A stretch of 43,118 bases of DNA from Brevundimonas sp. (lineage in GTDB: Bacteria; Pseudomonadota; Alphaproteobacteria; Caulobacterales; Caulobacteraceae). Location of the stretch: positions 1 through 43,118 of the forward strand of contig NZ_PNLV01000009.1 in assembly GCF_013823285.1 (NCBI RefSeq), read 5' to 3'. Within the stretch, counting starts at the first letter, position 1, and every line of letters begins with the position of its first letter. Both the position numbers and the translations under genes were made by a program. This document shows, piece by piece, positions 1 through 30,172 of this stretch. The notes under the pieces were generated by a model. That model was given only the letters and a program-made list of their open reading frames with translations. It made no database searches and was not told where the DNA came from.

Positions 1-1392
1 TTCGGGGCCTTCGGCGCGGATGACCCGGTGGGTGGCGCGCCGCCACTGGAACCGGGCAGGGGGGCTGTCGGGCGCCAGAGCCACGGCCTCGACCGGCTGG
101 GGCGGATCGAACAGGTGCAACGGCCGCAGCTGGGGCGAATCCGGGTCGGGCGCAGGCCAGTCCTCGCCGCGCGGCGTCGCCTGGGCGGGCGCCAGCCGGC
201 TGGATCGCTCCGGCAGGTGAGAGGCCACGGGCGTGACCCGCAGCACTGCCTCAGGCCCCAGCCTGGCGCTCAACTGGTCGATCAGGGCGTCCAGGGCCTC
301 GCCGCCGTGGGGGCGCTGGTCGAAGGCGACCTGCCGGGCCGCGACGGCGCGCAGCTGCTCGGCGCCCAGACGCAGGTGGTCAAAGCCGAAGCCGGGATCC
401 ACCGGCCGGCCCAGCGCCGCCAGCCGCTCGCGGAACAGGCGCATGACCACCCCCGCCTCCCGCACGGGGCGGGCGGTCTGCAGGGCGATGCGGCGGACGT
501 GGCCGTCCAGGCGGTACAGACCCAGCACGAACCGCCGCGCGCCCTGACCCCGGCTCTCGAGCTGCTGTTCGGCGTCTGCCAGCAGGTCGGCGATGACGGC
601 GTGCACCGCGTCCAGATCGGTGATGGGTTCGGCCAGCACCCGGTCGGCGGTGACCGGCGACGGCGGACGGTGGGGCGTGATGCGCACATCCACCCGCCCC
701 ATCACCCGGTCCAGCCGATCGGGGAAATCGGCGCCGAAGCGGGCGGCCAGCGGCGCCCGGGGCCGGGCGTCCAGATCGCCGAGGGTCTTCAGCCCCGCCC
801 GGCGGATGGCCTGATGATCGCGCGGGTCCAGTTCCATGGCCGCCACGGGCAGGCGCTGCGCAAGGGCCGCGTCCTGCCCCTCCGGCGCGACGCCGCCGGG
901 ACCGAACCGGGCCAGGGCTCGGGCGGTCTGGGGCGTGCGGGCGAGCGCCAGCCGGACCTGCAGCCCGAGGCGTTTAGCCCGGGCCCTGACCACGCCGACC
1001 ATCCGCGCCTCGCCGCCGAACAGATGGGCGCAGCCGGTCACGTCCAGCATCAGGCCGTTGGGCGCGTCCAGCGCCGCCATGGGGGTGAAACGGTCGAAAT
1101 CCTCCAGCACCGCGCGCAGCAGTCGGGCGTCGGCCTCGCCGTCGTGGGGAACCGCCTCGATCCCGGGTACCCGCGCCTGGGCGTCGGCCAGGGTCATGCC
1201 GGGCGACAGTCCCAGCGACAGGGCGGCCGGGTTCGCCGCCGTCAGACGCAGGGCGCCCCGGTCCTTGTCCACCAGAACCACGGGATGCTCAGGCGGCGCG
1301 GGATCGGCCTGCGCCCGCCGCAGCCGGTCGGTCGGCAGGACGGGAAACCAGACCGCCAGATGCCGACGGCGTGACGAAACTGCGCGTCTCAC
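1..1392 (-). CDS. imuB: ImuB, inactive Y-family polymerase-like protein (3' end outside window)
   Basis: The reading frame is open from a GTG at 1392 to the left edge, so about 464 N-terminal residues are present. The ORF track misses it because no stop lies in the window. The start reads LAVWFPVLPTDRL, the usual ImuB opening. Where true Y-family polymerases carry acidic catalytic residues, this protein has WFP and LDVTGCAHLFGG, so it should be non-catalytic. In the known ImuA-ImuB-DnaE2 mutasome, ImuB is the beta-clamp-binding adaptor for error-prone synthesis by DnaE2. It overlaps the imuA 3' end by about 100 bp in another frame, so translation is coupled. dnaE2 would be expected just outside the left edge. 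Confidence 0.9.
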   Translation of the reverse strand, partial: MRRAVSSRRRHLAVWFPVLPTDRLRRAQADPAPPEHPVVLVDKDRGALRLTAANPAALSLGLSPGMTLADAQARVPGIEAVPHDGEADARLLRAVLEDFDRFTPMAALDAPNGLMLDVTGCAHLFGGEARMVGVVRARAKRLGLQVRLALARTPQTARALARFGPGGVAPEGQDAALAQRLPVAAMELDPRDHQAIRRAGLKTLGDLDARPRAPLAARFGADFPDRLDRVMGRVDVRITPHRPPSPVTADRVLAEPITDLDAVHAVIADLLADAEQQLESRGQGARRFVLGLYRLDGHVRRIALQTARPVREAGVVMRLFRERLAALGRPVDPGFGFDHLRLGAEQLRAVAARQVAFDQRPHGGEALDALIDQLSARLGPEAVLRVTPVASHLPERSSRLAPAQATPRGEDWPAPDPDSPQLRPLHLFDPPQPVEAVALAPDSPPARFQWRRATHRVIRAEGPE

Positions 1393-2059
1393 GATCCCAC
1401 TCCATGGTCCATTCGCCGGGCGGCGCGCCGGACCGGCTGCGCAACAGCCGAGCTCGAAAGGCCGGTCGTCCCGGCGCATTGGCGGCCAGCGGCGCGGACG
1501 GGGCCGAGGCGATCGACCAACGGGTCTCCGCCGCGCTTGGCGCCGGCTCGGCGTTGGCGCGCACCAGCAGACCCAGGGTCGACCCGCTGCGCGCCGCCAT
1601 CATCAGTCGCCGGCTGGCGGTCAGGCCGTGGACTTTCGCCTCGCCCCAGCCGCTCATGATCACCGCCCCGGCCGCCCCGCTGCGCAAGGCCTCCTCGCCC
1701 GCCGCAAGCAGGGAGGCGGCGTCGGAGACCCGCACCATGATCAGATCGCCGGGATCCAGGCCCCAGGCCGACAGCCCGGGGCCAAAGGGCTCCCCCATCT
1801 CGGATCGTCCCGTTGTCTGGAGGATCCACACGGTTGTCCCCGAAACGCTGGATGCCAGACCCAGGGCGAACCCGTGGGCCGCCACCGCCTGGCGGGGCAC
1901 TTCGGGCAGCACCTCGTGCACCGCATCCGCCCTGACCGCCCCCAGACGCCCGTCCAGCGCCTCAATCCCCAACCGAAAGGGCTGCCCAGGCATGCACGGC
2001 CTGGGCTTTAGGGCCGACAGCTGTCGGCGCAGATGGTGAAGGGAAGGCGGCGGAGGCAT
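1289..2059 (-). CDS. imuA: ImuA, RecA-like SOS mutagenesis accessory protein
   Basis: A 256-residue protein whose N-terminus (LRRQLSAL, FRLGIEALDGRLG) and gene order directly before imuB match the alphaproteobacterial ImuA family, a RecA/SulA-like fold. In the known pathway ImuA works with ImuB and DnaE2 in damage-induced mutagenesis. The C-terminal tail is Arg/Ala/Pro rich and is the part that overlaps imuB. The ATG at 2059 is preceded by AGGAAC, and that AGGA lies inside the LexA operator, so operator and ribosome binding site are superimposed. No Walker A motif is obvious. Identification rests on context and the N-terminal pattern. Confidence 0.85.
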   Translation of the reverse strand: MPPPPSLHHLRRQLSALKPRPCMPGQPFRLGIEALDGRLGAVRADAVHEVLPEVPRQAVAAHGFALGLASSVSGTTVWILQTTGRSEMGEPFGPGLSAWGLDPGDLIMVRVSDAASLLAAGEEALRSGAAGAVIMSGWGEAKVHGLTASRRLMMAARSGSTLGLLVRANAEPAPSAAETRWSIASAPSAPLAANAPGRPAFRARLLRSRSGAPPGEWTMEWDRETRSFVTPSASGGLVSRPADRPAAAGAGRSRAA

Positions 2060-2063
2060 AAAA

Positions 2064-2078
2064 GTTCCTGATATGTTC
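2064..2078 (-). promoter_or_regulatory. LexA (SOS) box of imuAB
   Basis: The plus strand reads GTTC-CTGATAT-GTTC, an exact match to the alphaproteobacterial LexA operator GTTC-N7-GTTC. It lies only 4 bp upstream of the imuA ATG and includes the likely Shine-Dalgarno. LexA bound here would block transcription at or past the start site. SOS control of imuAB in Caulobacter is established; the site here is seen directly. Confidence 0.9.
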
Positions 2079-2216
2079 TCTCATATGCCTCTCCTTCCGC
2101 CATGAGAGTCAAGCGGAGCGTTGGGCAGAAAACGGCCTGTGCCAGGACAAGACCCGAGAGTCTCTTGACGGAATGCGGCATGAGCGGAATCTATCTGGCC
2201 TCAGGAGGGACATGAC

Positions 2217-2471
2217 GTGCCGACACGCAAATCCCTGATCAGATCAACCGCCGGGGTGAGGCTGGAGCGGATCGAGCAACTGAGCGCCCAAGGCAGGGTT
2301 CAGCAGCAGCACTTCACGCTTCGGACCCTGCGACCCCAAGCTCCTCGCGTCATCGCCGACGAGACGGCCGCGCTTGACGCCTTTGATCTGGAGGTCATCG
2401 CCTCCCTCGCCGATCCTGTGGCGTCGAAACTGGCGGATCATAAGGATCAAGCCGACCGTTCCGGCGCCTGA
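2217..2471 (+). CDS. small hypothetical protein
   Basis: An 84-residue ORF starting at GTG 2217. Eight bases before it is a strong AGGAGGG ribosome binding site. The ATG at 2212 meets a stop after eight codons, so GTG is the likelier start. The product is basic at the N-terminus (MPTRKSLIR) and acidic toward the middle, with no signal peptide or membrane segment. I do not recognise a family. It stands alone between imuA (divergent) and a convergent small gene, with the terminator hairpin at 2480-2507 just past its stop. Confidence 0.55.
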   Translation: MPTRKSLIRSTAGVRLERIEQLSAQGRVQQQHFTLRTLRPQAPRVIADETAALDAFDLEVIASLADPVASKLADHKDQADRSGA

Positions 2472-2479
2472 ACGAAAAA

Positions 2480-2507
2480 GGCCCCGTCGGCGCGAGCCGG
2501 CGGAGCC
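2480..2507 (-). terminator. intrinsic terminator of the 57-residue small gene
   Basis: A GC-rich hairpin has 12-nt arms (GGCCCCGTCGGC / GCCGGCGGAGCC, 11 of 12 paired) and a GCGA loop. On the minus strand it is followed by CTTTTTC, so it terminates the minus-strand gene ending at 2532. It may also stop reads from the plus-strand gene ending at 2471. Confidence 0.75.
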
Positions 2508-2531
2508 TCATCATGTCACTGCCTTGAAAGG

Positions 2532-2705
2532 CTAGTCCCCCGTGCCGAACCCGGCGGGGCCGCCGGCGCCCTGCGAGCCGTCGCCGCCTGTAGCAGGCGA
2601 TCCGGGCTTCTGACCGGGCTGATCGTCAGCGGGCGTCTGACCGGGGGTGTTGCCCTGGCCGGGCTGGCGCGGATCGTTGTCTTGTTCGATCGGTTGGTCG
2701 GTCAT
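2532..2705 (-). CDS. 57-residue Gly/Pro/Gln-rich hydrophilic protein
   Basis: This ORF is too short for the supplied track. It begins MTDQPIEQDNDPRQPGQG and ends GFGTGD. Composition is disordered, full of Gly, Pro, Gln and Asp, with no hydrophobic core. The ribosome binding site CTGGAGAG sits 5-6 bases before the ATG and an intrinsic terminator follows the stop, which together support a real gene. The composition resembles other small hydrophilic proteins in this window (18521, 22505, 33952) that look stress related. Function unknown. Confidence 0.6.
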   Translation of the reverse strand: MTDQPIEQDNDPRQPGQGNTPGQTPADDQPGQKPGSPATGGDGSQGAGGPAGFGTGD

Positions 2706-2849
2706 GATGCTCTCCAGTGGTTGCTCCGATCAACCAGGGGCGAAGGCGCTTGTTCCCGGCTCCCCGACGAACCGGGTTCGCGCCAGGGTGAGATCTGGCG
2801 AAGGAGCGGGCCGAAGGTAGTCCCAGCACTGGGGCTTATGCCTACAAGC

Positions 2850-4287
2850 GACGGGAGCGTGATGGTGGACCGTCAGGCACGGCCCGTCCGATGTCCGCTC
2901 TCAGACCAGATCCGAATGTCGGCTGCTGGCGCTTCTCAGTCCTTCAGTCGCCGATGGGCGGCGCTTTCGGACTGGGATGACAGGGTCACGGTGAACGTGC
3001 TGCTGTCCTTTGCCCAGTTCGAGCGGGACGTGACGGGGGAGCGCATACGCGACAAGATCGCCGCTTCAAAGGCCAAGGGCATGTGGATGGGTGGCGTCGT
3101 GCCCTTGGGATACGACGCGCCCGACAACTCGGGCGACAGGCGTTTGCGCGTCAACGAGACCGAGGCGGCGACAGTGCGGATGATTTTCGATGAGCTCATC
3201 GCATGTCGGTCCTTTTATGATCTCCAGCAACGGCTGGAAGAGGAGGGGATACGGTCAAAGGCCGGTCGCTCCCGGCGCGGCGTCGCCTATCCGGGGATGC
3301 CTTTCAGCCGGGGGGCCCTTCGCCATCTGCTGCAGAACAAGACCTACCTCGGCCTTATCTGCCACAAGGGCGGGACCTACGAGGGCCGGCATGAGCCTAT
3401 TGTCGACCAGCATACGTTTGATGCCGTGCAGGGCCTGCTAGAAAAGAGGAGCGCAGTCTGGAAGGCGCGAGGCGCCGAGTCTTGACAGAGCGCCGCTTCG
3501 GGGGCGGGTTTTCGATGAGCTCGGGCAACTCATGCGGCCATTGTTCGTCCGGCGGAAGGGGCGCGTATACAGCTATTACGTCGGGCCAGCTCCCTTACTC
3601 GGCATAATCGGACCGCAGCAGGCGGACGCCTTACGTCGCGTCCCCTGCGCCGCGCTGGAGGGAATACTTCTCCGACGTCTCGGCCACCTGATTGACCGAG
3701 ATGAGCGAACGATCAGCATCGATGATCTCCGCAGGGCGGTGGCGCGCGTCGAGATCCGGAGTGATTGCGTGCATCTGGTGGTCGCTCTCAGGGCTCTGAA
3801 ATATTTCAGGGAGGATTTGAACCCTGCTGCGGCGGTGGAGGCCAGGCTGATCTCCGGCGATCGTGTCCTCGCCGAGGTGAACCGACCCGGGCACATTCGG
3901 ATCGCCCTACCCATCCGGATGAAGGTTCGTGGAGGGCGGACCTGGTTCAGCCATCAGGGGCGGGAGGTCGGCGCCGATGCAGACGCGGCGAGGTCCGCAG
4001 CCCTGAAACGGTTGAGGAGCGCCCATGAAGCATTTGCCCTCGCCCGTCCCGGTCTATCGCCGTTGCGACACGTTGTGCGGACAGCGAGGACGCCTACGGC
4101 TGATTTCAGGAAGTACGCGTGGGTCTTCCTCGCTCCCGACATCCAGTCCGCGATCCTGACCGGTGGCATCTCCACCGGGGCAATAGCCAAGCTCAACACT
4201 CAGAAGGCGATTCCTCTGAGCTGGGAGGCCCAGCGTCGACTGCTGGGGATAGACGGTGCTGCTCAAGCGGACATGTTGGGCGCGTAA
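2850..4287 (+). pseudogene. decayed large serine recombinase (N-terminal decay plus frameshift)
   Basis: Two frames together make most of a large serine recombinase. From about 2990 frame 3 reads VNVLLSFAQFERDVTGERIRDKI then GMWMGGVVPLGYD, the junction of catalytic and recombinase domains. It continues through the zinc-ribbon region to a stop at 3483. Frame 1 resumes at 3481 (LRGRVFDELGQLMRPLF, RKGRVYSYYV) and runs to LSWEAQRRLLGI near 4260, the usual family C-terminus. One extra base near 3480 explains the break. The resolvase domain with the catalytic serine is unrecognisable except for traces such as VDRQARPVRCPLSD and SQSF around 2863-2945. The gene cannot make an active integrase, so it is a relic of an integrated element. 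Confidence 0.85.
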
Positions 4288-4312
4288 GGTTCGAGTCTCC
4301 CCGGCCAGTCCA
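4288..4312 (+). other. tRNA 3'-end-like sequence, possible attachment-site remnant
   Basis: Right after the recombinase stop the sequence reads GGTTCGAGTCTCCCC then GGCCAGTCCA. This fits a T-loop (TTCGAGT), a 3' T-stem strand (CTCCC), a 7-nt acceptor strand and NCCA. The matching 5' half is absent; recombinase sequence is there instead. Such half tRNAs mark att sites of integrated elements. It could also be chance or tRNA-derived debris. Confidence 0.4.
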
Positions 4313-4329
4313 GGGTGCGCTAGCTGAAG

Positions 4330-4613
4330 CAGCGCGAGGTCACCGCGACCTGTTCGGCTTCCTGACCAGCGATCCGAACGCCCAGGTGCGGACCGTTCAT
4401 TCCAAGACCATGCCCGTGATCCTGACCAAGCCGAAGGACTTCGAGATATGGATGACGGCGCAGCGGGAGATCGCGGCCGATCTGCAGCGGCCGCTGTCGG
4501 AGGGGGCGCCTCGTTGTCTTGAAACGGTAAGCGCGACCTGGATTGGCGCGCAAGTCTGGAGCGTCGTGATCGGGTCATTCTCGGCGCGGGTCGCAATGTT
4601 CGCCGACGGCTGA
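4330..4613 (+). pseudogene. 3' fragment of an SRAP (YedK/HMCES-type) peptidase gene
   Basis: The frame contains LFGFLTSDPNAQVRTVHSKT, then MPVILT, FEIWMTA and LQRPLSEGA. This is the C-terminal part of SRAP-domain proteins, including the conserved His of the IHPKAMPVIL-type motif (here VHSKTMPVIL). The N-terminal two thirds, with the catalytic Cys2 that crosslinks abasic sites, is missing. Upstream in this frame lies out-of-frame recombinase sequence, so no functional start exists. It is a broken copy next to the recombinase relic and probably arose when the element inserted or was partly deleted. Confidence 0.65.
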
Positions 4614-4625
4614 TTTGGGCTCAAA

Positions 4626-4646
4626 GCGGACCTCTGGCAGGTCCGC
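4626..4646 (-). terminator. terminator hairpin after the MerC-like gene
   Basis: A perfect 8-bp stem GCGGACCT / AGGTCCGC with a 5-nt loop is flanked by AAA on one side and AAAA on the other, so it could act in either direction. It lies about 40 bp past the stop of the minus-strand MerC-like gene. Confidence 0.55.
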
Positions 4647-4688
4647 AAAACGGATCGCTATGAGGAGCCGAGCTTTGTAGCATCCTTG

Positions 4689-5072
4689 TCAATGAGCCAC
4701 GTGGCGGTCCAGTTTGCGGTGCCGCCAGTTGAGCGTGTGCGCCCCGGCCAGCAACAGGGCGCCGGCGACCGTCAGGCCGGTTTCCCAGTCATGCGAGGGA
4801 AACGCCGCCACGCCGGCCACCAGAAGCGCCAGACCCGAGCCGGCCAGTATCGCGAGAGACCACGAACGGGTCACGGGACGGCTGAAGGCCCAGAGCGAAA
4901 CTGGCGCGGCGATCGCCACGAACAGCCAGTGCACCCATTCCGTCTCAGCCCAGACCCCGGCCAGAGGTAGCAGGCTCGCCACCAACGGCAGGGCCAGGCA
5001 GTGGGTCAGGCACAATCCCGACACGCCGATGGCCAGACTATCTCCGAGGGCGGCAGTGCGGGCAGCGGGCAT
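4689..5072 (-). CDS. MerC-like inner-membrane protein, probably zinc-regulated
   Basis: A 127-residue protein with four hydrophobic segments (about residues 12-38, 46-64, 70-88 and 95-112) and the short Cys motif GLCLTHCLALPL in the first one. That arrangement fits the MerC family, small membrane proteins known for taking up mercuric ions. No mer genes are present. The gene is divergent from a metal-transport operon and shares a Zur-type palindrome with it, so a role in zinc handling is more likely than mercury resistance. The ATG at 5072 has GGAGAGAG upstream. The His-containing tail (HRKLDRHVAH) faces one side of the membrane. Confidence 0.75.
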   Translation of the reverse strand: MPAARTAALGDSLAIGVSGLCLTHCLALPLVASLLPLAGVWAETEWVHWLFVAIAAPVSLWAFSRPVTRSWSLAILAGSGLALLVAGVAAFPSHDWETGLTVAGALLLAGAHTLNWRHRKLDRHVAH

Positions 5073-5101
5073 GGTCTCTCTCCGGAAGGTTGCCCTTCTA
5101 T

Positions 5102-5118
5102 GTGTTACTATATAACAC
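5102..5118. promoter_or_regulatory. Zur-type operator between the MerC-like gene and the ABC operon
   Basis: GTGTTACTATATAACAC is a palindrome with perfect 6-bp arms (GTGTTA / TAACAC). It resembles the proteobacterial Zur box core (GTTAT-n-ATAAC type). It sits 10 bp before the ATPase ATG and 29 bp before the MerC-like ATG, so one Zur dimer pair could repress both directions. The site at 12477 matches it at 14 of 15 core positions. Confidence 0.8.
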
Positions 5119-5128
5119 TCAACACAAG

Positions 5129-5806
5129 ATGCCTGATGTCGAGAAATCTCCCCTGCTGCAGACGCACGCCCTGAGGGTCGGGTGGGACGGCGCCGCCGTG
5201 GCCGATCTGGACGATCTCGCCCTTGAAGCCCGCGACGCGAGTCTGATGCTCGGGCCGTCGGGCAGCGGCAAGACCACGGCGCTATTCACCCTCGCCGGTC
5301 TTCTCCCGCCGGTGGCGGGGGAGGTGCGGCTGGCGGGCGATGCCCTCTGGAGCCTGCCTGCCGCCCGCCGGCGCGCCCTGCGGTCGAGCCGGATCGCGGT
5401 GGTGTTTCAGGACATGCACCTGCTGGGCGGCCTGAGCGTGATGGACAATCTGCTGCTGGCGCCGTTCGCGGCCGGGGCGCGGCAGGACCGGGGCGCGGCG
5501 ATGGGCAGCCTCGAGCGGCTGGGTCTGGCGGGGCTGGCGGATCGCAAGGCCGACGCCCTCAGCCGGGGCGAGGCCCAGCGCGTGGCGGTGGCCCGCGCCG
5601 TGCTGATGCAGCCGCGCCTCATCCTGGCCGACGAACCCACGGCCAGCCTTGATGACGACAATGCCGAGCGGGTGGGGCGCCTGCTTGTGGACGCGGCGGC
5701 GGACGTCGGGGCGGTGCTGGTGATCGCCACCCACGACCGCCGGCTGATGACGCTCGTGCCGGGCCGGATACCGCTGCGGGCGCCCGGGGCGGAGGTCGCG
5801 GCGTGA
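5129..5806 (+). CDS. LolD/MacB-like ABC transporter ATPase
   Basis: A 225-residue ATPase with Walker A GPSGSGKTT (about residue 41), Q-loop VVFQDMHLL, signature LSRGEAQRV, Walker B LILADEPTASLD and H-loop ATHD. All catalytic residues are present. The ORF-track start at TTG 5090 lies inside the promoter, so ATG 5129, just after the Zur-type operator, is the better start although its ribosome binding site is weak. It is translationally coupled (GTGA overlap) to an FtsX-like permease. Similar ATPase-permease-DUF3299 operons in Pseudomonas (the PA4063-PA4066 group) are Zur regulated and thought to serve zinc homeostasis; that parallel is recalled, not searched. Confidence 0.85.
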   Translation: MPDVEKSPLLQTHALRVGWDGAAVADLDDLALEARDASLMLGPSGSGKTTALFTLAGLLPPVAGEVRLAGDALWSLPAARRRALRSSRIAVVFQDMHLLGGLSVMDNLLLAPFAAGARQDRGAAMGSLERLGLAGLADRKADALSRGEAQRVAVARAVLMQPRLILADEPTASLDDDNAERVGRLLVDAAADVGAVLVIATHDRRLMTLVPGRIPLRAPGAEVAA

Positions 5807-7041
5807 ACCCGTTCAAGCTGACCGCAGCCCTGATCGCCCGACGACCCGCAAGCTGGGCCTTTCACGTTCTGGTTCTGGCCATGGCGGCGGCCGTCACCGG
5901 GGCGGTGCTGCTGGTCCAGCAGGCGGCGGAAGAGGGTCTCCAGCGCGATCTGGCCGAGGTCGATCTGGTGGTCGGCGCCGAGGGCAGCCCCCTGCAACTG
6001 GTCATGTCCGCCCTGTTCCAGACCGACGCGCCCACGGGGAATATTCCGCTGGGGGAAGCCCGGCGTCTGGCCGCGGATCCGCTGGTCGCCCGGGCGATCC
6101 CCCTGTCCCTCGGCGACAGCCTTGGGACGGCGCGCATCGTCGGAACCGAGCCGGCCTATGCCGATCTCTATGGCGCCCGCCTGCGGGACGGGCGCTGGTG
6201 GACCGCCCCTCTGGAAGCCGTGATCGGGGCGGAGGTGGCGCGCACCCAAGGCCTCGCGCCCGGCGATGAATTCGTCGGCGCCCATGGTCTGGGAACCGGC
6301 GGCGACGCCCATGAGGACCATCCCTACCGGGTGGTGGGCGTCCTGGCGCCCACCGGCGCCGTGATCGATCGGTTGATCCTGACGGATCTGGCCAGTGTCT
6401 GGGTGCTGCATGAGGCTCACGCAGCCGAGGCGGCGCCCGAGCATCACGCCCATGTGGGCCACGATCATGGCCATGAGGCATCCCCCCGAACGGAGGCGGC
6501 GGCCCGCGAGGTGACGGCCGTTCTGATCCAGTACCGGTCCGCCCTGGGCGCGGTGACGCTGCCGCCGCGGATCGACCGCATCCCCGGACTTCAGGCCGCG
6601 TCGCCGGCGCGGGAGGCGCAGCGCCTCAACGCCCTGCTGGGGGCCGGAGCGGGCGCCATGGCCCGGCTGGGGCAGGGGCTCATGCTTGTCGCGGCGCTGG
6701 GCTTCGTGGTGGCGACCAGCGCCGCCGTTCTGGCCCGGCGACGGGAGCTGGCCCTGCTGACGGCCTTGGGCTGCGGGCCGATCAGGCTGGCGAGCCTCAT
6801 CCTGCTGGAGGCCGCCATACTGGGTCTGGCCGCCGGTCTGGCGGGCTGGCTTGGCGCGCGAGGGCTGACCGAGGCCGTGGCGCGATGGGGCGCTTCGCCT
6901 CTGGACCTGCCCACGCCGCCGCTCGCGGGCCTTGATGTCCTCCTGATCGCCGGGCCCGTGCTGGTCGCTCTGCTCGCAGGCCTTCCTGCCGCCGTCATCG
7001 CCGCGCGCACCGACCCGGTCCGCGTGCTGGGAGAGCGCTGA
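5803..7041 (+). CDS. FtsX-like ABC permease with a His-rich periplasmic loop
   Basis: A 412-residue permease starting at GTG 5803. It has one N-terminal membrane helix (about residues 18-40), a large periplasmic MacB/LolC-type domain, and three C-terminal helices (about 285-305, 325-350, 375-395), the FtsX topology. The periplasmic domain carries a striking His run at about 205-226 (HHAHVGHDHGHE), a likely zinc-binding loop. It ends on TGATG, overlapping the next start. Its partners are the ATPase before it and the DUF3299 lipoprotein after it. The family usually couples ATP hydrolysis to periplasmic work such as lipoprotein extraction or export, so the direction of any metal movement is unclear. 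Confidence 0.8.
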   Translation: MNPFKLTAALIARRPASWAFHVLVLAMAAAVTGAVLLVQQAAEEGLQRDLAEVDLVVGAEGSPLQLVMSALFQTDAPTGNIPLGEARRLAADPLVARAIPLSLGDSLGTARIVGTEPAYADLYGARLRDGRWWTAPLEAVIGAEVARTQGLAPGDEFVGAHGLGTGGDAHEDHPYRVVGVLAPTGAVIDRLILTDLASVWVLHEAHAAEAAPEHHAHVGHDHGHEASPRTEAAAREVTAVLIQYRSALGAVTLPPRIDRIPGLQAASPAREAQRLNALLGAGAGAMARLGQGLMLVAALGFVVATSAAVLARRRELALLTALGCGPIRLASLILLEAAILGLAAGLAGWLGARGLTEAVARWGASPLDLPTPPLAGLDVLLIAGPVLVALLAGLPAAVIAARTDPVRVLGER

Positions 7042-7754
7042 TGGTTCGCTATGCACCGGTGATCCTCGCGGCGCTGGCGCTGGCCGCTTGCGGCGAGCCC
7101 TCAGCCACGACAGAGCCCGCGCTCGCCGGCGGCGCCGCGGCCGAAGCGTGGGGAGCCGTGGGGCAGGGCGCCGAGCCGATCACGCCGCCGGCGAGCCCCT
7201 CCGCCGACGAGGACGCGCGGGCTTCGGTCGATCAGGACGCGCCGCTGGACCCTCTGGATCAGGCGATGGCCGACCTGCCGCCGATCCAGACCGGGCCCAT
7301 GTCGTCCGGCGCCGGCGGCCCTTGGGATGACGAACTGGCCGCCGAGCGTCAGGCCCAGCTGAACCTTCCAACGGCGGATGATCCGCTCTGGGACCTGTTG
7401 CGCCAGACGCGGGTGACAATCGACGAGCGCACCCAGCTGTTCGAGGCGTCCCACCCCGCCCCGGTCCGCGCCCGCGCCGGACGCCGCGTCACCGTGCGGG
7501 GCTACATGCTGCCGCTGGAAGCCACGAACAGGACGGCCCACTTCCTGATCTCGCCTTATACGCCCGTCTGCTATTTCCACCCGCCCGCGGAGCCCAACGA
7601 GGTGATCGAGGTTCGCCTCAGCCGCCCCATCGAGGCGGGCTATCATCTGGTGGAGGTGACGGGCGTGCTGCGGCTGTCCAATGACGGAGAGAAGGGCCTG
7701 TTCTTCGTCATTCCCGAGGGCTCGGCGCGGGTGATCGAACGGGTGGTGGGCTGA
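7041..7754 (+). CDS. DUF3299 lipoprotein
   Basis: A 237-residue protein with a lipoprotein signal ending LALAAC (Cys17), a low-complexity acidic linker to about residue 110, and a C-terminal DUF3299 domain. Recognisable pieces are TVRGYMLPLE, then TPVCYFHPPAEPNE, which hold the family's Cys and His. The fold resembles an OB-like periplasmic domain of unknown role. The gene is the last of the operon led by the ABC ATPase and overlaps the permease stop. It converges on the DUF1826 gene and overlaps its 3' end by 47 bp. Zinc-starvation control is inferred from the upstream operator. Confidence 0.75.
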   Translation: MVRYAPVILAALALAACGEPSATTEPALAGGAAAEAWGAVGQGAEPITPPASPSADEDARASVDQDAPLDPLDQAMADLPPIQTGPMSSGAGGPWDDELAAERQAQLNLPTADDPLWDLLRQTRVTIDERTQLFEASHPAPVRARAGRRVTVRGYMLPLEATNRTAHFLISPYTPVCYFHPPAEPNEVIEVRLSRPIEAGYHLVEVTGVLRLSNDGEKGLFFVIPEGSARVIERVVG

Positions 7755-8343
7755 CGGCCTGGGGCGCTGCTTCGGGTTCCAGCGACCAGACGTCCAGGGT
7801 CAGCACCTGCCGGGGCGCGGCGGGGGATGCGGCGGGCGAGCGGTGAAGCAGTACCGGAAAGTCGGGCCAGGCCTCCCAGCCCGGCGCCGAGCCCTTCATG
7901 ATCGCTACGTCGCCTGGAAACAGCGTGCGGACCTGGCCCTTCGTCTGGCTGAGCCGGGCATCCAGATCGTCGCCGCATTCGTGCGCGAACAGCCATTCCG
8001 TACCCGGCCCGGCATAGGTGGTGATGAGCCTGACGGACACGGCGTCCTGATGAAAGCGGGGGCACTGGCGCTCCCGAACGGTCTCATGACGGCCTTTCCA
8101 GAAGAGGCTTCCGCTGACCGCGCAGAAGATTTCTCCGAGCTGCTGGAGATCCGTGTGCAGCCATTCGGGCGCCTGGCCCGAGGTGGAGACCCCGACCCCG
8201 TCAAAGGCCAGGAGGATGTCTCTATCCTCATGGAGATCCAGACACGGCGAGGGCCGGTTCCAGACCGCCATCCGCACCTGTGGCTCCCACAGGGTTGAAA
8301 AGACCAGAGGGGTCAGACCCTCGACGACGCAGCCGACAGCCAT
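7708..8343 (-). CDS. DUF1826 family protein
   Basis: A 211-residue soluble protein with the DUF1826 pattern: RMAVWNRP near residue 23, LHTDLQQLG, then FHQDAVSVRLITTYAGPGTEWL with conserved His, Asp and Arg. The His/Asp spacing recalls metal-binding cupin or 2-oxoglutarate oxygenase folds, but that is a guess. It is the third gene of a minus-strand operon, 3 bp after the second TonB receptor. DUF1826 genes are, to my knowledge, repeatedly found with Zur-regulated and COG0523 genes, which fits this location. The Pro/Ala-rich tail (about residues 190-211) overlaps the convergent DUF3299 gene. Confidence 0.75.
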   Translation of the reverse strand: MAVGCVVEGLTPLVFSTLWEPQVRMAVWNRPSPCLDLHEDRDILLAFDGVGVSTSGQAPEWLHTDLQQLGEIFCAVSGSLFWKGRHETVRERQCPRFHQDAVSVRLITTYAGPGTEWLFAHECGDDLDARLSQTKGQVRTLFPGDVAIMKGSAPGWEAWPDFPVLLHRSPAASPAAPRQVLTLDVWSLEPEAAPQAVSPPPVRSPAPSPRE

Positions 8344-8346
8344 TCT

Positions 8347-10368
8347 CTAGAAACGTCCGCTGAGGGTGACGGTGACGAATGAGCCCCGGCGTGTGACGCG
8401 ATCCTCAAATCCCGTGATCGCGCCGGATCGATCGCCCGCGAACAGGGTGCGCCGGCGACGCGTCTCCTGCCCGTTGAGGTCCTGGACCTTCAGTTGCAGC
8501 ATCAGGCCGCCGGTCAGGCGACGCTCGACGAAGCCGCCCCATCCGGCGTTGTCGCTGTAGCGGGTGAACTCGCTGAGCAGGTAGTCGGTCTGTCGCGCGC
8601 GGGCGGTGTAGGCCACACCCCAGCTCCAGGGACTTTCGGGGACGTCGCGGCGGAAGGCCGCTTTGATCCGGGGGTCGGAGGCGCCGCTGATGCCGCGATC
8701 TTCACCCGTCACCGGATCCGTGAAGTCCGTATCTAGGAACAGCGCCTCCAGGGTCAGGCGGCTGCCCGACCACAGGGTGTCCAGAGGGATGGTCGCGGCC
8801 GCCTTGATCCCGCGATAGGTCGCGTCGCCGACGTTGGCCAGGCCAGGAGCGCCGGACGGCAGCAGGATCTGCTCCAGCACATCGGTGCGGTCTTCGTGGA
8901 ACAGCTCAAGATTGGCCGCGAAGTCGCCGCTGCCACGGTAGTCCATGGACAAGGCGTACCGGGTGGTCCGCGCGGGCTCGATGTCCGGATTGCCCGCCTG
9001 GGTCTGGCCTTCGTTCAGCTCGGCGGACGCCGCGAAGTCGGCGAAGTCGAGTTGGCCGACGGTGGTGCGCACGCCCGCCCGGAGAAGGAGAGGTTCGCTC
9101 GGCCGCCAGGCGATGGCGAAGGACGGCTTCAGATAGGTCAGGTCACGGCTGTTGTCCGCGTCGCCGCTGACCGAAATCCTGGAGGCTTCGGCGGCGAGGC
9201 CGCCTTCGAGGGTCACCGCAGGGGTGAGGGCGTAGCTGGCGTTGGCGAAGGCTTCTCCGCGCCATTCCTCCACCGTGATATTGGACGCCGGCACAGGCGC
9301 GTCGACGCCGTCCACCGTCAGGCTGAAGGTGCTCTCGAGGCGATTGTAGGCGAACTCGCCCCCGACTTCTCCTTTCAGACGTCTGTCCTGGGGGGAGGCG
9401 AACCGGGTGCGCGCCACAGCTTCCAGCGGGCGGGACGTGGAGGCGACCCCGACCCGCCCCGGAAGGGGCCCCGCCGCATCCCGCGTTCGCTGATCCTGAC
9501 CGGCCTCGTTGTCCTCCACGTTCAGAAGGCCGACGGTGCTCCAGCTCCATTGACCCATGGGCCGGGTGAAATCGACACCCAGCTCCCCGATCCACAGGAT
9601 GCTGTCCAGCGACAGAAGCTCCAGCTGGTCGGGTGCGCCATCCGGAAGCCGAGCCAGGAACCGGTCGCTGGTCTGATCGAAATAATAGAAGGACCGGCCG
9701 AACCGTCCCGTCACCTTCAACCTGCCGCCGAGGGCGTCGCGCGTGGCTTCTCCGGAGAGGAAGACGTCCGTGAGGGTGGAGGGGAGAAACACCTCCTGGC
9801 TGGACACCACCTCGCCGTCCGGGTCCGTGAAGACGCGCTCGGTCTCGAAGGGATATTCCTCCCAGAAGCCGTTGAACTGGACGGATGTGTCCCACCCTCC
9901 CATTTCCCGCGACGCCGTGGCCGCCAGGCGGGGATAGACCATCCCCCGGCCGTTTCGCTCCAGGCCCGCCGACCAGATTCCGGACGTCCCGCCCCGGAGC
10001 CGGACGAGATTCAGCACCAGCGCTTGCCCCTGGGCGTCGGCGAGATTGGCGTTGCGAAGCAGCTCCACCCGGTCGATCTGATCCGCCGGAATGCGGCGCA
10101 AAGTCTCGCGGATGCCGCCCGATTTGGAGGAGGGCCGGGCGCCGTCGATCAGGACGTTGGAGCCTGAACCGGCCAGTCCGCGCACCGATCCGTCGCCCTC
10201 GATGAGAACGAACCCCGGGGTGCGTTCGACGATGTCGAGCGCTGTGCGCGGGTTGAAGGCGGCGAAGTCCGATGCCGGGTAGGTCGTGGTCCCCGCGCTT
10301 TGGGCGCGGGCGGGCTCGCCGGCTCCAAGGAGCGCCAGAATGCCGGCCAGGGTCAGCGCCGTGCGCAT
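8347..10368 (-). CDS. TonB-dependent outer-membrane receptor
   Basis: A 673-residue protein with a signal peptide (cleavage near GEPARAQ), a plug domain (TALDIVERTPGF, VLIDGARPSSKSGG, VELLRNAN at about 40-105) and a long beta-barrel ending in LSGRF with a terminal Phe, the outer-membrane insertion signal. It lacks the N-terminal STN and CarboxypepD domains, so it is a transport-only receptor. It lies 1 bp after the siderophore-type receptor and 3 bp before DUF1826, so the three form one transcript from the Zur-type operator at 12477. The ligand cannot be read from sequence; zinc or a zinc chelate is inferred from regulation. Confidence 0.85.
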   Translation of the reverse strand: MRTALTLAGILALLGAGEPARAQSAGTTTYPASDFAAFNPRTALDIVERTPGFVLIEGDGSVRGLAGSGSNVLIDGARPSSKSGGIRETLRRIPADQIDRVELLRNANLADAQGQALVLNLVRLRGGTSGIWSAGLERNGRGMVYPRLAATASREMGGWDTSVQFNGFWEEYPFETERVFTDPDGEVVSSQEVFLPSTLTDVFLSGEATRDALGGRLKVTGRFGRSFYYFDQTSDRFLARLPDGAPDQLELLSLDSILWIGELGVDFTRPMGQWSWSTVGLLNVEDNEAGQDQRTRDAAGPLPGRVGVASTSRPLEAVARTRFASPQDRRLKGEVGGEFAYNRLESTFSLTVDGVDAPVPASNITVEEWRGEAFANASYALTPAVTLEGGLAAEASRISVSGDADNSRDLTYLKPSFAIAWRPSEPLLLRAGVRTTVGQLDFADFAASAELNEGQTQAGNPDIEPARTTRYALSMDYRGSGDFAANLELFHEDRTDVLEQILLPSGAPGLANVGDATYRGIKAAATIPLDTLWSGSRLTLEALFLDTDFTDPVTGEDRGISGASDPRIKAAFRRDVPESPWSWGVAYTARARQTDYLLSEFTRYSDNAGWGGFVERRLTGGLMLQLKVQDLNGQETRRRRTLFAGDRSGAITGFEDRVTRRGSFVTVTLSGRF

Positions 10369-26479: not shown

Positions 26480-26702
26480 ACGTCGGCCTTGGAGGCGCCT
26501 TACCTCCCTTGTCGCGGCTCGAGATGTGCGCGCCGTGTCAGTTCCTGGAGCCCCCGTCATGAGCATGGCGGGGGTTCTTGGTTGTAATGGGTGCAGGCGG
26601 ATGCCGCCCGGCTCGCCAACACCCAGACCCCTGTTCCTCGCGTCGGCACAAGGCGTGGGCAGCGTTACGTTCCATCCTCCTGGCGTGTTTGGCTGCGGCT
26701 AG
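26480..26702 (+). pseudogene. decayed duplicate of the 28.5-29.1 kb small-gene segment
   Basis: Two blocks here match the segment 2 kb downstream. TCGGCTCG-GATGTGCGCGCC then GTGTCAGTTCC at about 26516-26548 matches 28529-28561. Also, the frame ending at 26702 reads SAQGVGSVTF, matching SAQGVGSVAF of the 108-residue gene at 28801. The copy here changes frame between AAR(L)AN and SAQGV and stops early, so it is broken. Between 26110 and 26846 I see no intact gene. Confidence 0.55.
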
Positions 26703-26846: not shown

Positions 26847-28205
26847 TCACTTCGCCGTCACCAAGAACCTCAAGGTGTAGTTGTCCAGTGTTCCCGGCAG
26901 CCGCCGGGGCGAGAGCCTCTCGGGCTCTTCCAGATTCATCGTCATTCGTGTGAGCAGGCGGCGCAGGGCCAACGAGGCGGTCATGGGTACAAAGTGCGCC
27001 GCCGGGCAGACTACCGGGCCGTGGCTGAACGGAACCAGGGCCAGGTCCGGCCGGACGATCCCGTCGGTCCACAAGGCCGGGTCGAACACGTGGGCCTGGT
27101 CCAGAGTTTCGTCGTCCCGATGGAAGAAGGGGGCGAAGATGAAGATGTGCACGTCCTCATCCAGACCGCCGCGCGCCCATCGGACCGGCCGTGTAGTTTC
27201 ACGGAGGATGGCGGGCGTTGTGGGCCACAGCCGCAGTGCTTCCAGAAAACAGGCGCGCAGATAGTCGAGAGACGGAACGGCTTTCCCCTCTGCAGCAGCA
27301 ATCTCGGCGCGCGCCTTTTCCTCCGCAGCGGAATGGGCCGAAAGCAGGGCCAGGGTTCGAAACAACGCCATGCCGCCTGGGTCGAAGGCGAACAGGTACT
27401 GCGGCAATTGATGGTGGGGCTGAAGGCCTGCTTCCGGACAAAGCTGGGCCATCCGACCCGCCAGGCTTTGGGGATCCGCCTTATCGACATAGCGGCGCAG
27501 ACTCCGCAGAAACGCCTCGCGGCCTTTCCGGTGCCTGGGACGCAGGAAGGCGTAATTCGCTCGGTAGCGCAGATCCTCAAGCAGGTCGGTCAGTTCCGTG
27601 TCGTCCCTCGCGTCGTCGCCCAGCACGATGCGCCTGACCGTGCGCATCCAACCGGTGAAAAAGCTGTCCCAGTCGAGAACGCCCTGCTCGAGAGCCTGGT
27701 CGCAGACCGCATCCATTTCTTCGGCCACGACCTTGGCGAACCGTTCGCTCATGGAGTGGATCGGACAACCGGTCTCCAGCGTCTCTTCGTTGAGCCGCCG
27801 CCGCTTTTCGCGATCGGCGCCCTTTGACGCGAGAACGACATGGGGCTCGAAGTGATTCAGGGCCGAGCGCTTTTCGCGGGTAGCCGCATCGAAGGGATCG
27901 GGTGAGCCTTCCAGCACCATGCGCACATCAGCTGGCGACAACAGCAGGGCCTGGCGTCGGAACGGGACCGCCAGAACCAGGGGCCCGGCCCCATGCTTGC
28001 GCCGCAGCGCCTGCAACCGTTTCACCGCCCGGTCGTCGAGGCCTTTCCGCTCAGCGTATCCCACCACCTTCCGGCGGCGGATGAGCGGGCCCTTCCCCAG
28101 AGTGGGAAGGATCACAGCCTTTAGGACAGCGAAGGTATCGAGGACGCCCGCGTGTGAGACCGCGTGTGGCGAAACGGCCATGAGAACGGGCTCAGTGCGG
28201 GTCAT
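26847..28205 (-). CDS. cytochrome P450-like protein
   Basis: 452 residues from ATG 28205, with GGAGG before it. P450 landmarks are the K-helix ExxR (FLEALRLW near 320), a PERF-like region (FDPALWTD), and the heme loop PFSHGPVVCPAAHF with the Cys ligand near 414. The I-helix, normally AGxET, reads FAFDPGGMALF, so the oxygen-activating acid-Thr pair is missing. That suggests atypical chemistry, or peroxide use as in some bacterial P450s. It has no membrane anchor. A symmetric EcfG-type promoter lies about 80 bp upstream. No redox partner gene is nearby. Confidence 0.8.
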   Translation of the reverse strand: MTRTEPVLMAVSPHAVSHAGVLDTFAVLKAVILPTLGKGPLIRRRKVVGYAERKGLDDRAVKRLQALRRKHGAGPLVLAVPFRRQALLLSPADVRMVLEGSPDPFDAATREKRSALNHFEPHVVLASKGADREKRRRLNEETLETGCPIHSMSERFAKVVAEEMDAVCDQALEQGVLDWDSFFTGWMRTVRRIVLGDDARDDTELTDLLEDLRYRANYAFLRPRHRKGREAFLRSLRRYVDKADPQSLAGRMAQLCPEAGLQPHHQLPQYLFAFDPGGMALFRTLALLSAHSAAEEKARAEIAAAEGKAVPSLDYLRACFLEALRLWPTTPAILRETTRPVRWARGGLDEDVHIFIFAPFFHRDDETLDQAHVFDPALWTDGIVRPDLALVPFSHGPVVCPAAHFVPMTASLALRRLLTRMTMNLEEPERLSPRRLPGTLDNYTLRFLVTAK

Positions 28206-28286
28206 GTGACCTCCAGCGTAAGACAGGACGATGCGCCTTTATCGAAGCGGCGCGCGACGCATCTGGAAGGACGAACGCCTTGGTCA

Positions 28287-28314
28287 GGAACCCGGTGACG
28301 TAGAGGGTAGTTCC
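28287..28314. promoter_or_regulatory. symmetric EcfG-type promoter, possibly bidirectional
   Basis: The sequence is GGAAC-N18-GTTCC, which reads the same on both strands. Each strand therefore shows a -35 GGAAC and a -10 GTT at EcfG spacing. The minus direction leads to the P450 gene, and the plus direction leads into the 28.3-28.6 kb non-coding segment. Confidence 0.6.
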
Positions 28315-28597
28315 TCAGAACCGTCTGCGACTCGTTGATCGAAAACGGACGCCAGGAAAGCCTCCCTGAACATCGCCGATGTTCCCGCGTGGAGGACTCC
28401 TCGTGCAGGCGGTTTTCCGGCGTTAGGCCGGGGTCTGCTCACCGAGGCGCCCCTTCAGCATATCCCGCTCTGATGATGAGTCCGAAGCCGACGGGACATC
28501 GATCGGGGCAATGCCTTTTGCACTGTCTCGGCTCGGATGTGCGCGCCCCGTGTCAGTTCCGGGCCCATCCGCGGTGGCGGTGCTCTTGGCTGAGAAG
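28315..28597 (+). other. non-coding segment with inverted repeat, possible RNA
   Basis: The only ORF (from 28335) has no ribosome binding site and a poor composition. The segment holds a perfect 7-bp inverted repeat GAACATC-GCC-GATGTTC at 28368-28384. At 28529-28561 it carries the block shared with 26.5 kb. A transcript from the plus side of the symmetric promoter would cross it. RNA function is an inference. Confidence 0.35.
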
Positions 28598-28623
28598 GGA
28601 ACAGATGGCCAGCACTGTATGTT
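28598..28623 (+). promoter_or_regulatory. EcfG-type promoter of the 52-residue gene
   Basis: GGAAC is followed 18 bases later by GTT (GGAAC-N17-tGTT), within the EcfG spacing range. The promoter ends 22 bases before the ATG at 28646, leaving a short leader with AAGGAG. Confidence 0.65.
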
Positions 28624-28645: not shown

Positions 28646-28804
28646 ATGACCACAGGAAATCCCGAGGAGAAACCCCGGACCGCACCGGCGGAAGGCGACA
28701 ACGACCGCGAGGACACGACGCCCGAAATCGCCGCTGATGACGCCGGGGCCTCGGCCATGGCGGAACGGAAAGCCAAGAAGTTGGAACAGCGGGAAAAGTC
28801 ATGA
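28646..28804 (+). CDS. 52-residue charged protein
   Basis: Too short for the track. MTTGNPEEKPRTAPAEGDND opens an acidic stretch, and the end is a basic helix (AMAERKAKKLEQREKS). AAGGAG precedes the ATG, an EcfG-type promoter lies just upstream, and the stop overlaps the next start (ATGA). It has the look of a small general-stress protein. No family is recognised. Confidence 0.65.
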   Translation: MTTGNPEEKPRTAPAEGDNDREDTTPEIAADDAGASAMAERKAKKLEQREKS

Positions 28805-29127
28805 AGAAGCCGCGCCCTTCGACGCCCCCTGAGCCCTACACCCCCGGGGAACAGATGGATCGACCCATCAAGCCCGTCGAACGCGAGGTCATGAACCGGG
28901 AAGCCGCCACATTGGCCATGCGCTCGCACCACCATGCGTTTGCAGGGTCAGCCCAAGGCGTGGGCAGCGTCGCCTTCGACGACCCCGGAGCGTATGACGT
29001 CAGCCAGCCCGCTGTTCAACCGGAGCAGCGGCTCAACTCCGATCCAGCGGCCACGCCGCATTCCGATCCGTGTCCGAGCGCCGAGGCCAGCCGTATTCGC
29101 GCGGGGGGCTTGGCTCCGGGGGAGTAG
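28801..29127 (+). CDS. 108-residue hydrophilic protein
   Basis: Starts inside the previous stop codon, so it is coupled to it. The sequence is Pro-rich at the start (KKPRPSTPPEPYTPGEQM), then has a helix with a His cluster (MRSHHHAFAG) and a conserved-looking SAQGVGSVAFDDPGAY. The end is disordered. A broken copy of the middle part lies at 26.6 kb, which suggests the family duplicates locally. Function unknown. Confidence 0.6.
   Translation: MKKPRPSTPPEPYTPGEQMDRPIKPVEREVMNREAATLAMRSHHHAFAGSAQGVGSVAFDDPGAYDVSQPAVQPEQRLNSDPAATPHSDPCPSAEASRIRAGGLAPGE

Positions 29128-30082: not shown

Positions 30083-30172
<90 letters not shown>

Follow-up and report, generated by a model that had tools for sequence, protein, structure and literature searches.

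A predicted one-way EcfG general-stress promoter upstream of a cytochrome P450 gene in Brevundimonas sp.

Bidirectional promoters that arise from the symmetry of their sequence are known in bacteria for the −10 elements recognised by sigma-70. The promoters of the extracytoplasmic function factor EcfG/SigT (ECF15) of Alphaproteobacteria are described as GGAAC-N16-CGTT and variants of it. Their −10 element is flexible, with 14 different −10 boxes reported (PMC7083833), CGTT being a preference and not a strict requirement. In Rhizobium etli, a non-coding RNA, ReC64, is known to depend on EcfG (PMC3892343).

The window analysed here, a stretch of 43,118 nt of a Brevundimonas sp. genome, carries at positions 28287–28314 the 28-mer GGAACCCGGTGACGTAGAGGGTAGTTCC, which is an exact match to GGAAC-N18-GTTCC, as the original prediction had it, so that GGAAC-N18-GTT is found on each of the two strands. 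The prediction was also right in describing GGAAC and GTTCC as reverse complements of each other, a relation that gives some EcfG sites a two-way appearance. The match of the plus strand to GGAAC...GTT arises solely from this relation, GTT followed by CC being GGAAC on the opposite strand. The site shares with the known EcfG/SigT promoters the GGAAC −35, the GTT core, an allowed spacing, the position before a gene and the presence of NepR-EcfG-PhyR in the genome, and departs from their commonest form in its GGTT −10 (instead of CGTT), in a spacer one base longer (N18 instead of N17) and in the CC that follows the −10 and gives the element its symmetry. Promoters of the sigma-70 kind were looked for near the site and none was found.

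When read on the minus strand, the −35 GGAAC occupies 28314–28310 and is followed by a spacer of 18 nt and by the −10 GGTT at 28292–28289 (GTT at 28291–28289). This predicted promoter (28289–28314, GGAAC-N18-(G)GTT) lies 83 nt upstream of the ATG of a cytochrome P450 gene encoded on the same strand (26847–28205), with GGAGG ahead of its start codon. The presence of a P450 in one of the two directions had been proposed and was confirmed by its match to PF00067 and by the ExxR (EALR) and FxxGxxxC (FSHGPVVC) motifs. The element is probably a one-way EcfG (ECF15) general-stress promoter of this gene, read leftwards. Its observed basis is the motif itself, the enrichment of the motif in the genome, the NepR-EcfG-PhyR locus and the promoters of P450 homologues; actual transcription, its start point, its direction and its dependence on stress are what we infer. 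In the proposed mechanism, RNA polymerase carrying EcfG would bind the −35 and −10 elements given above and start transcription of the minus strand at around position 28280, so that the mRNA would have a leader of about 75 nt ahead of the P450 coding sequence, and under stress phosphorylated PhyR would take NepR off EcfG, by which the P450 would be switched on.

At 9 of the 12 P450 homologue loci that were read, a sense GGAAC-N17/18-GTT was detected 30–86 nt before the start codon, and a homologue from another alphaproteobacterium (G599) had no such site. Most of the Rhizobium P450 promoters read are symmetric, several of them in the form GGAAC-N17/18-GGTTCC, whereas the homologues of Paracoccus and of strain WSM1325 have lost the symmetry and retained GGAAC...GTT. 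When seven Rhizobium plasmids were aligned, GGAAC was invariant and the −10 region was no more conserved than its surroundings, so that shared ancestry is enough to explain the symmetry; a selective conservation of the CC in Rhizobium was therefore rejected.

The general stress locus of this genome was located through its nepR gene, identified with a Pfam model at position 35393 of contig C11, the ORFs at either side of which read as PhyR and EcfG from their sequence and position. Two canonical divergent sites lie beside nepR, one with a spacer of N17 and the other of N18, each ending in CGTT, and the corresponding nepR/phyR sites read in the genus also end in CGTT, the one exception being a symmetric site of one relative when read in its second direction. 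In that relative (L078, 1718–1744), the nepR/phyR intergenic EcfG site has the form GGAAC-N17-GGTTCC.

The frequency of the motif was assayed with a simple purpose-written gene caller on samples of 825 kb of the own genome and 1.2 Mb of six relatives. In the former, GGAAC-N17/18-GTT was found upstream of genes in the sense orientation 23 times, roughly elevenfold the 2.1 expected as the mean over 87 permuted motifs, the highest permuted count being 10; in the relatives, 22 sites were found against 3.0 for permuted motifs. From 23 observed and 2.1 expected, an upstream match has a chance of around 9% of being accidental. A fortuitous match, with an EcfG promoter on neither strand, is an alternative to be weighed, as about two such sites among the 23 would be expected to arise by chance and symmetric sites are not enriched in the genome. 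Nevertheless, similarly placed sites are found before P450 homologues, and at the rate of the permuted motifs a site would fall within 250 nt of any particular gene in about 0.6% of cases, and we regard such a coincidence as unlikely.

To compare the two strands, a profile was built from 44 upstream EcfG-like sites, from which the 28287 site itself was excluded, and 41 sites elsewhere were used for comparison. The minus reading scored −0.94, at the 16th percentile of the real sites and so in the lower part of their range, whereas the plus reading (28287–28312, GGAAC-N18-(A)GTT) scored −5.00, below every one of the 44 reference sites. The base before GTT was G in 14 of the 44 reference sites, GGTT being a common variant among them, but in none of them was it A, compared to 8 of the 41 sites elsewhere (p = 0.002). 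Of the proposal that the element reads as a promoter on each strand, the part concerning the minus strand is supported, as its GGTT lies in the genuine range, and the part concerning the plus strand is not, given its AGTT; this −10 sequence speaks against two-way firing, and the mirror reading is probably not an effective promoter.

The plus side had been described as a segment without a gene, but it carries a pair of overlapping genes conserved in the genus. The first (28646–28804, plus strand) encodes a small acidic protein of 52 aa and the second (28801–29127, plus strand) a protein of 108 aa, with a 4-nt overlap between them; neither protein had a Pfam or NCBIfam match. Homologues of the second gene were found in 24 of 198 other genomes of the family, and in the genus they are commonly adjoined by a purL-like ORF. 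Twenty-two nucleotides before the ATG of the first gene lies a predicted EcfG promoter (28598–28623, plus strand, GGAAC-N18-(T)GTT), at a position equivalent to that in relatives: GGAAC was present about 50 nt before the start of this gene in all 13 relatives read, in seven of them as an exact GGAAC-N17-GTT and in others with ATT replacing GTT. The plus side therefore does contain genes, and their operon, with its own predicted promoter, does not need the 28287 site. If the element did fire in both directions, its rightward transcript could be an alternative upstream mRNA of the 28646–29127 operon, with the 28287 and 28598 promoters in tandem. On the plus strand, GGAAC and GTT are both exact and their spacing is an allowed one, no terminator-like site was detected on this strand between the element and the operon, and AGTT is present at some EcfG-linked genes of other alphaproteobacteria, such as #2534 of Sphingomonas melonis (PMC6599016), and at candidate EcfG sites in Rhizobium. 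Against this stand the absence of AGTT from the upstream sites, the score of the plus reading and the fact that the operon is already served by a predicted promoter at the position used in relatives, all of which make a tandem arrangement improbable.

Even less probable is that two-way firing would yield a discrete stress small RNA on the right, for which the EcfG-dependent ReC64 of R. etli offers a precedent. The 321 nt between the element and the operon did not match any Rfam family and folded no better than their shuffled versions (z-score −0.68), no terminator-like site was found on the plus strand between 28320 and 28640, and the plus −10 is the disfavoured one. For lack of a family match, an unusual fold and a terminator, a discrete plus-strand stress RNA was rejected; with an operon bearing its own predicted promoter downstream, the unannotated stress RNA hinted at in the original prediction has no support.

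Symmetry of this kind is no more frequent in the genome than would be expected by chance. Across the genome, GGAAC-N16-19-GTTCC was found at 15 sites, compared to 21 for the reversed motif used as a control, and CC followed GTT in 5 of the 44 upstream EcfG-like sites and in 2 of the 41 others, with about 11% expected from base composition. At the gene of an OmpA-like lipoprotein, 28 of the 30 loci retain the promoter and only three retain the symmetry. All four N18 symmetric sites of the genome precede genes, which makes the symmetry seem more meaningful than it is, and in relatives symmetric sites were 0 of 22. Symmetry as a feature selected genome-wide was therefore rejected, there being no enrichment over the control or in relatives. 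Its dyad symmetry and the symmetric sites at most Rhizobium P450 promoters read might suggest that the inverted repeat serves as an operator for a dimeric regulator and not as a promoter. This is hardly credible, since the two arms coincide exactly with the EcfG −35 and with its complement and the Paracoccus and WSM1325 homologues lose the symmetry yet keep GGAAC...GTT.

A site that appears from its sequence to be a better candidate for two-way promoter activity than the 28287 element lies in the intergenic region between an SDR gene and hslO (Hsp33) on contig C6 (20942–20969), where a GGAAC-N18-GTTCC presents CGTT towards SDR and GGTT towards hslO. In the SDR/hslO regions read in the genus (L144, L303–L330 and others), 21 exact sites were found, 12 of them symmetric; the reading towards SDR has CGTT and that towards hslO has, in most cases, GGTT. 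Seven of the 12 symmetric genomes look like a single clade, so that about five independent lineages are represented. The excess of symmetry over other promoters gave a Fisher p of 0.0002 for the first ten loci, a value to be read with the related genomes not being independent and the locus having been noticed after the fact. It is tentatively possible that some EcfG promoters are truly two-way, with the −35 of one strand overlapping the −10 of the other, SDR/hslO being the strongest candidate and the P450 site a weaker example.

The P450 gene was likely acquired horizontally. No close orthologue was found in 149 genomes of the family, a single match of 51% was obtained among 385 genomes of the class, and a scan of genome contigs for the P450 revealed no relative. 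Homologues were found on plasmids of Paracoccus (61%), Neorhizobium (46%), Roseinatronobacter (44%) and Rhizobium (around 42%). In Paracoccus, genes for Mn catalase, DUF892 and SDR proteins are clustered with the homologue. Several GGAAC-N17-GGTT sites precede P450, DUF892, SDR and other genes on plasmid p296221 of Paracoccus aestuarii (positions 264–8427 of the region read), a pattern that suggests a plasmid-borne stress cluster.

The DNA around the 28287 site is absent from relatives, which have no orthologous place for it. In seven relatives, the similarity to the window extends no further than the 3′ end of a tRNA-Ser(CGA) gene (30083–30172, minus strand) or its vicinity, meaning that the sequence to the left of the tRNA gene is not shared at this place and is a variable, possibly acquired region. 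Direct repeats of the tRNA-Ser of at least 12 bases were searched for as traces of island integration, and none was found. A repeat of around 39 bases with 88% identity is present at 26510–26548 and 28524–28563, intergenic on both sides of the P450 gene, and the sequences near 26643 and 28946 also resemble each other, as if part of the 28801–29127 gene had been copied and the copy had decayed.

With respect to the known systems, the 28287 site resembles the sigma-70 bidirectional promoters in that, owing to symmetry, a single site can be read on either strand, but in those it is the −10 itself that is symmetric, whereas at 28287 an overlap would join the −35 of one strand to the −10 of the other, and the second direction is probably ineffective. 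ReC64, an RNA associated with EcfG1 in R. etli, is alike to the proposed stress RNA in that an EcfG promoter drives an intergenic RNA (PMC3892343), but on the plus side of the 28287 site no structure, terminator or family match pointing to an RNA was found. As an EcfG promoter can become symmetric by gaining only CC after its −10, there is a simple way to test if two-way promoters are made by ECF sigma factors, and SDR/hslO is the place for it.

Through the predicted one-way promoter, a mobile P450 would join what is likely the general-stress regulon, and its homologues in other alphaproteobacterial families mostly have the same kind of promoter. A close parallel is that of the P450 genes of Rhizobium plasmids, such as p42f of R. 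etli CFN 42, the P450 of the window having around 42–46% identity to the Rhizobiaceae proteins. Several of these homologues directly follow a gene of the sigma-70 family, as is the case on p42f, whose locus PF00052 represents the second copy of ecfG in this strain (PMC3892343) and, we infer, the neighbour of the P450. In these cases the P450 gene comes after a sigma factor gene, whereas that of the window is divergent from a small-protein operon.
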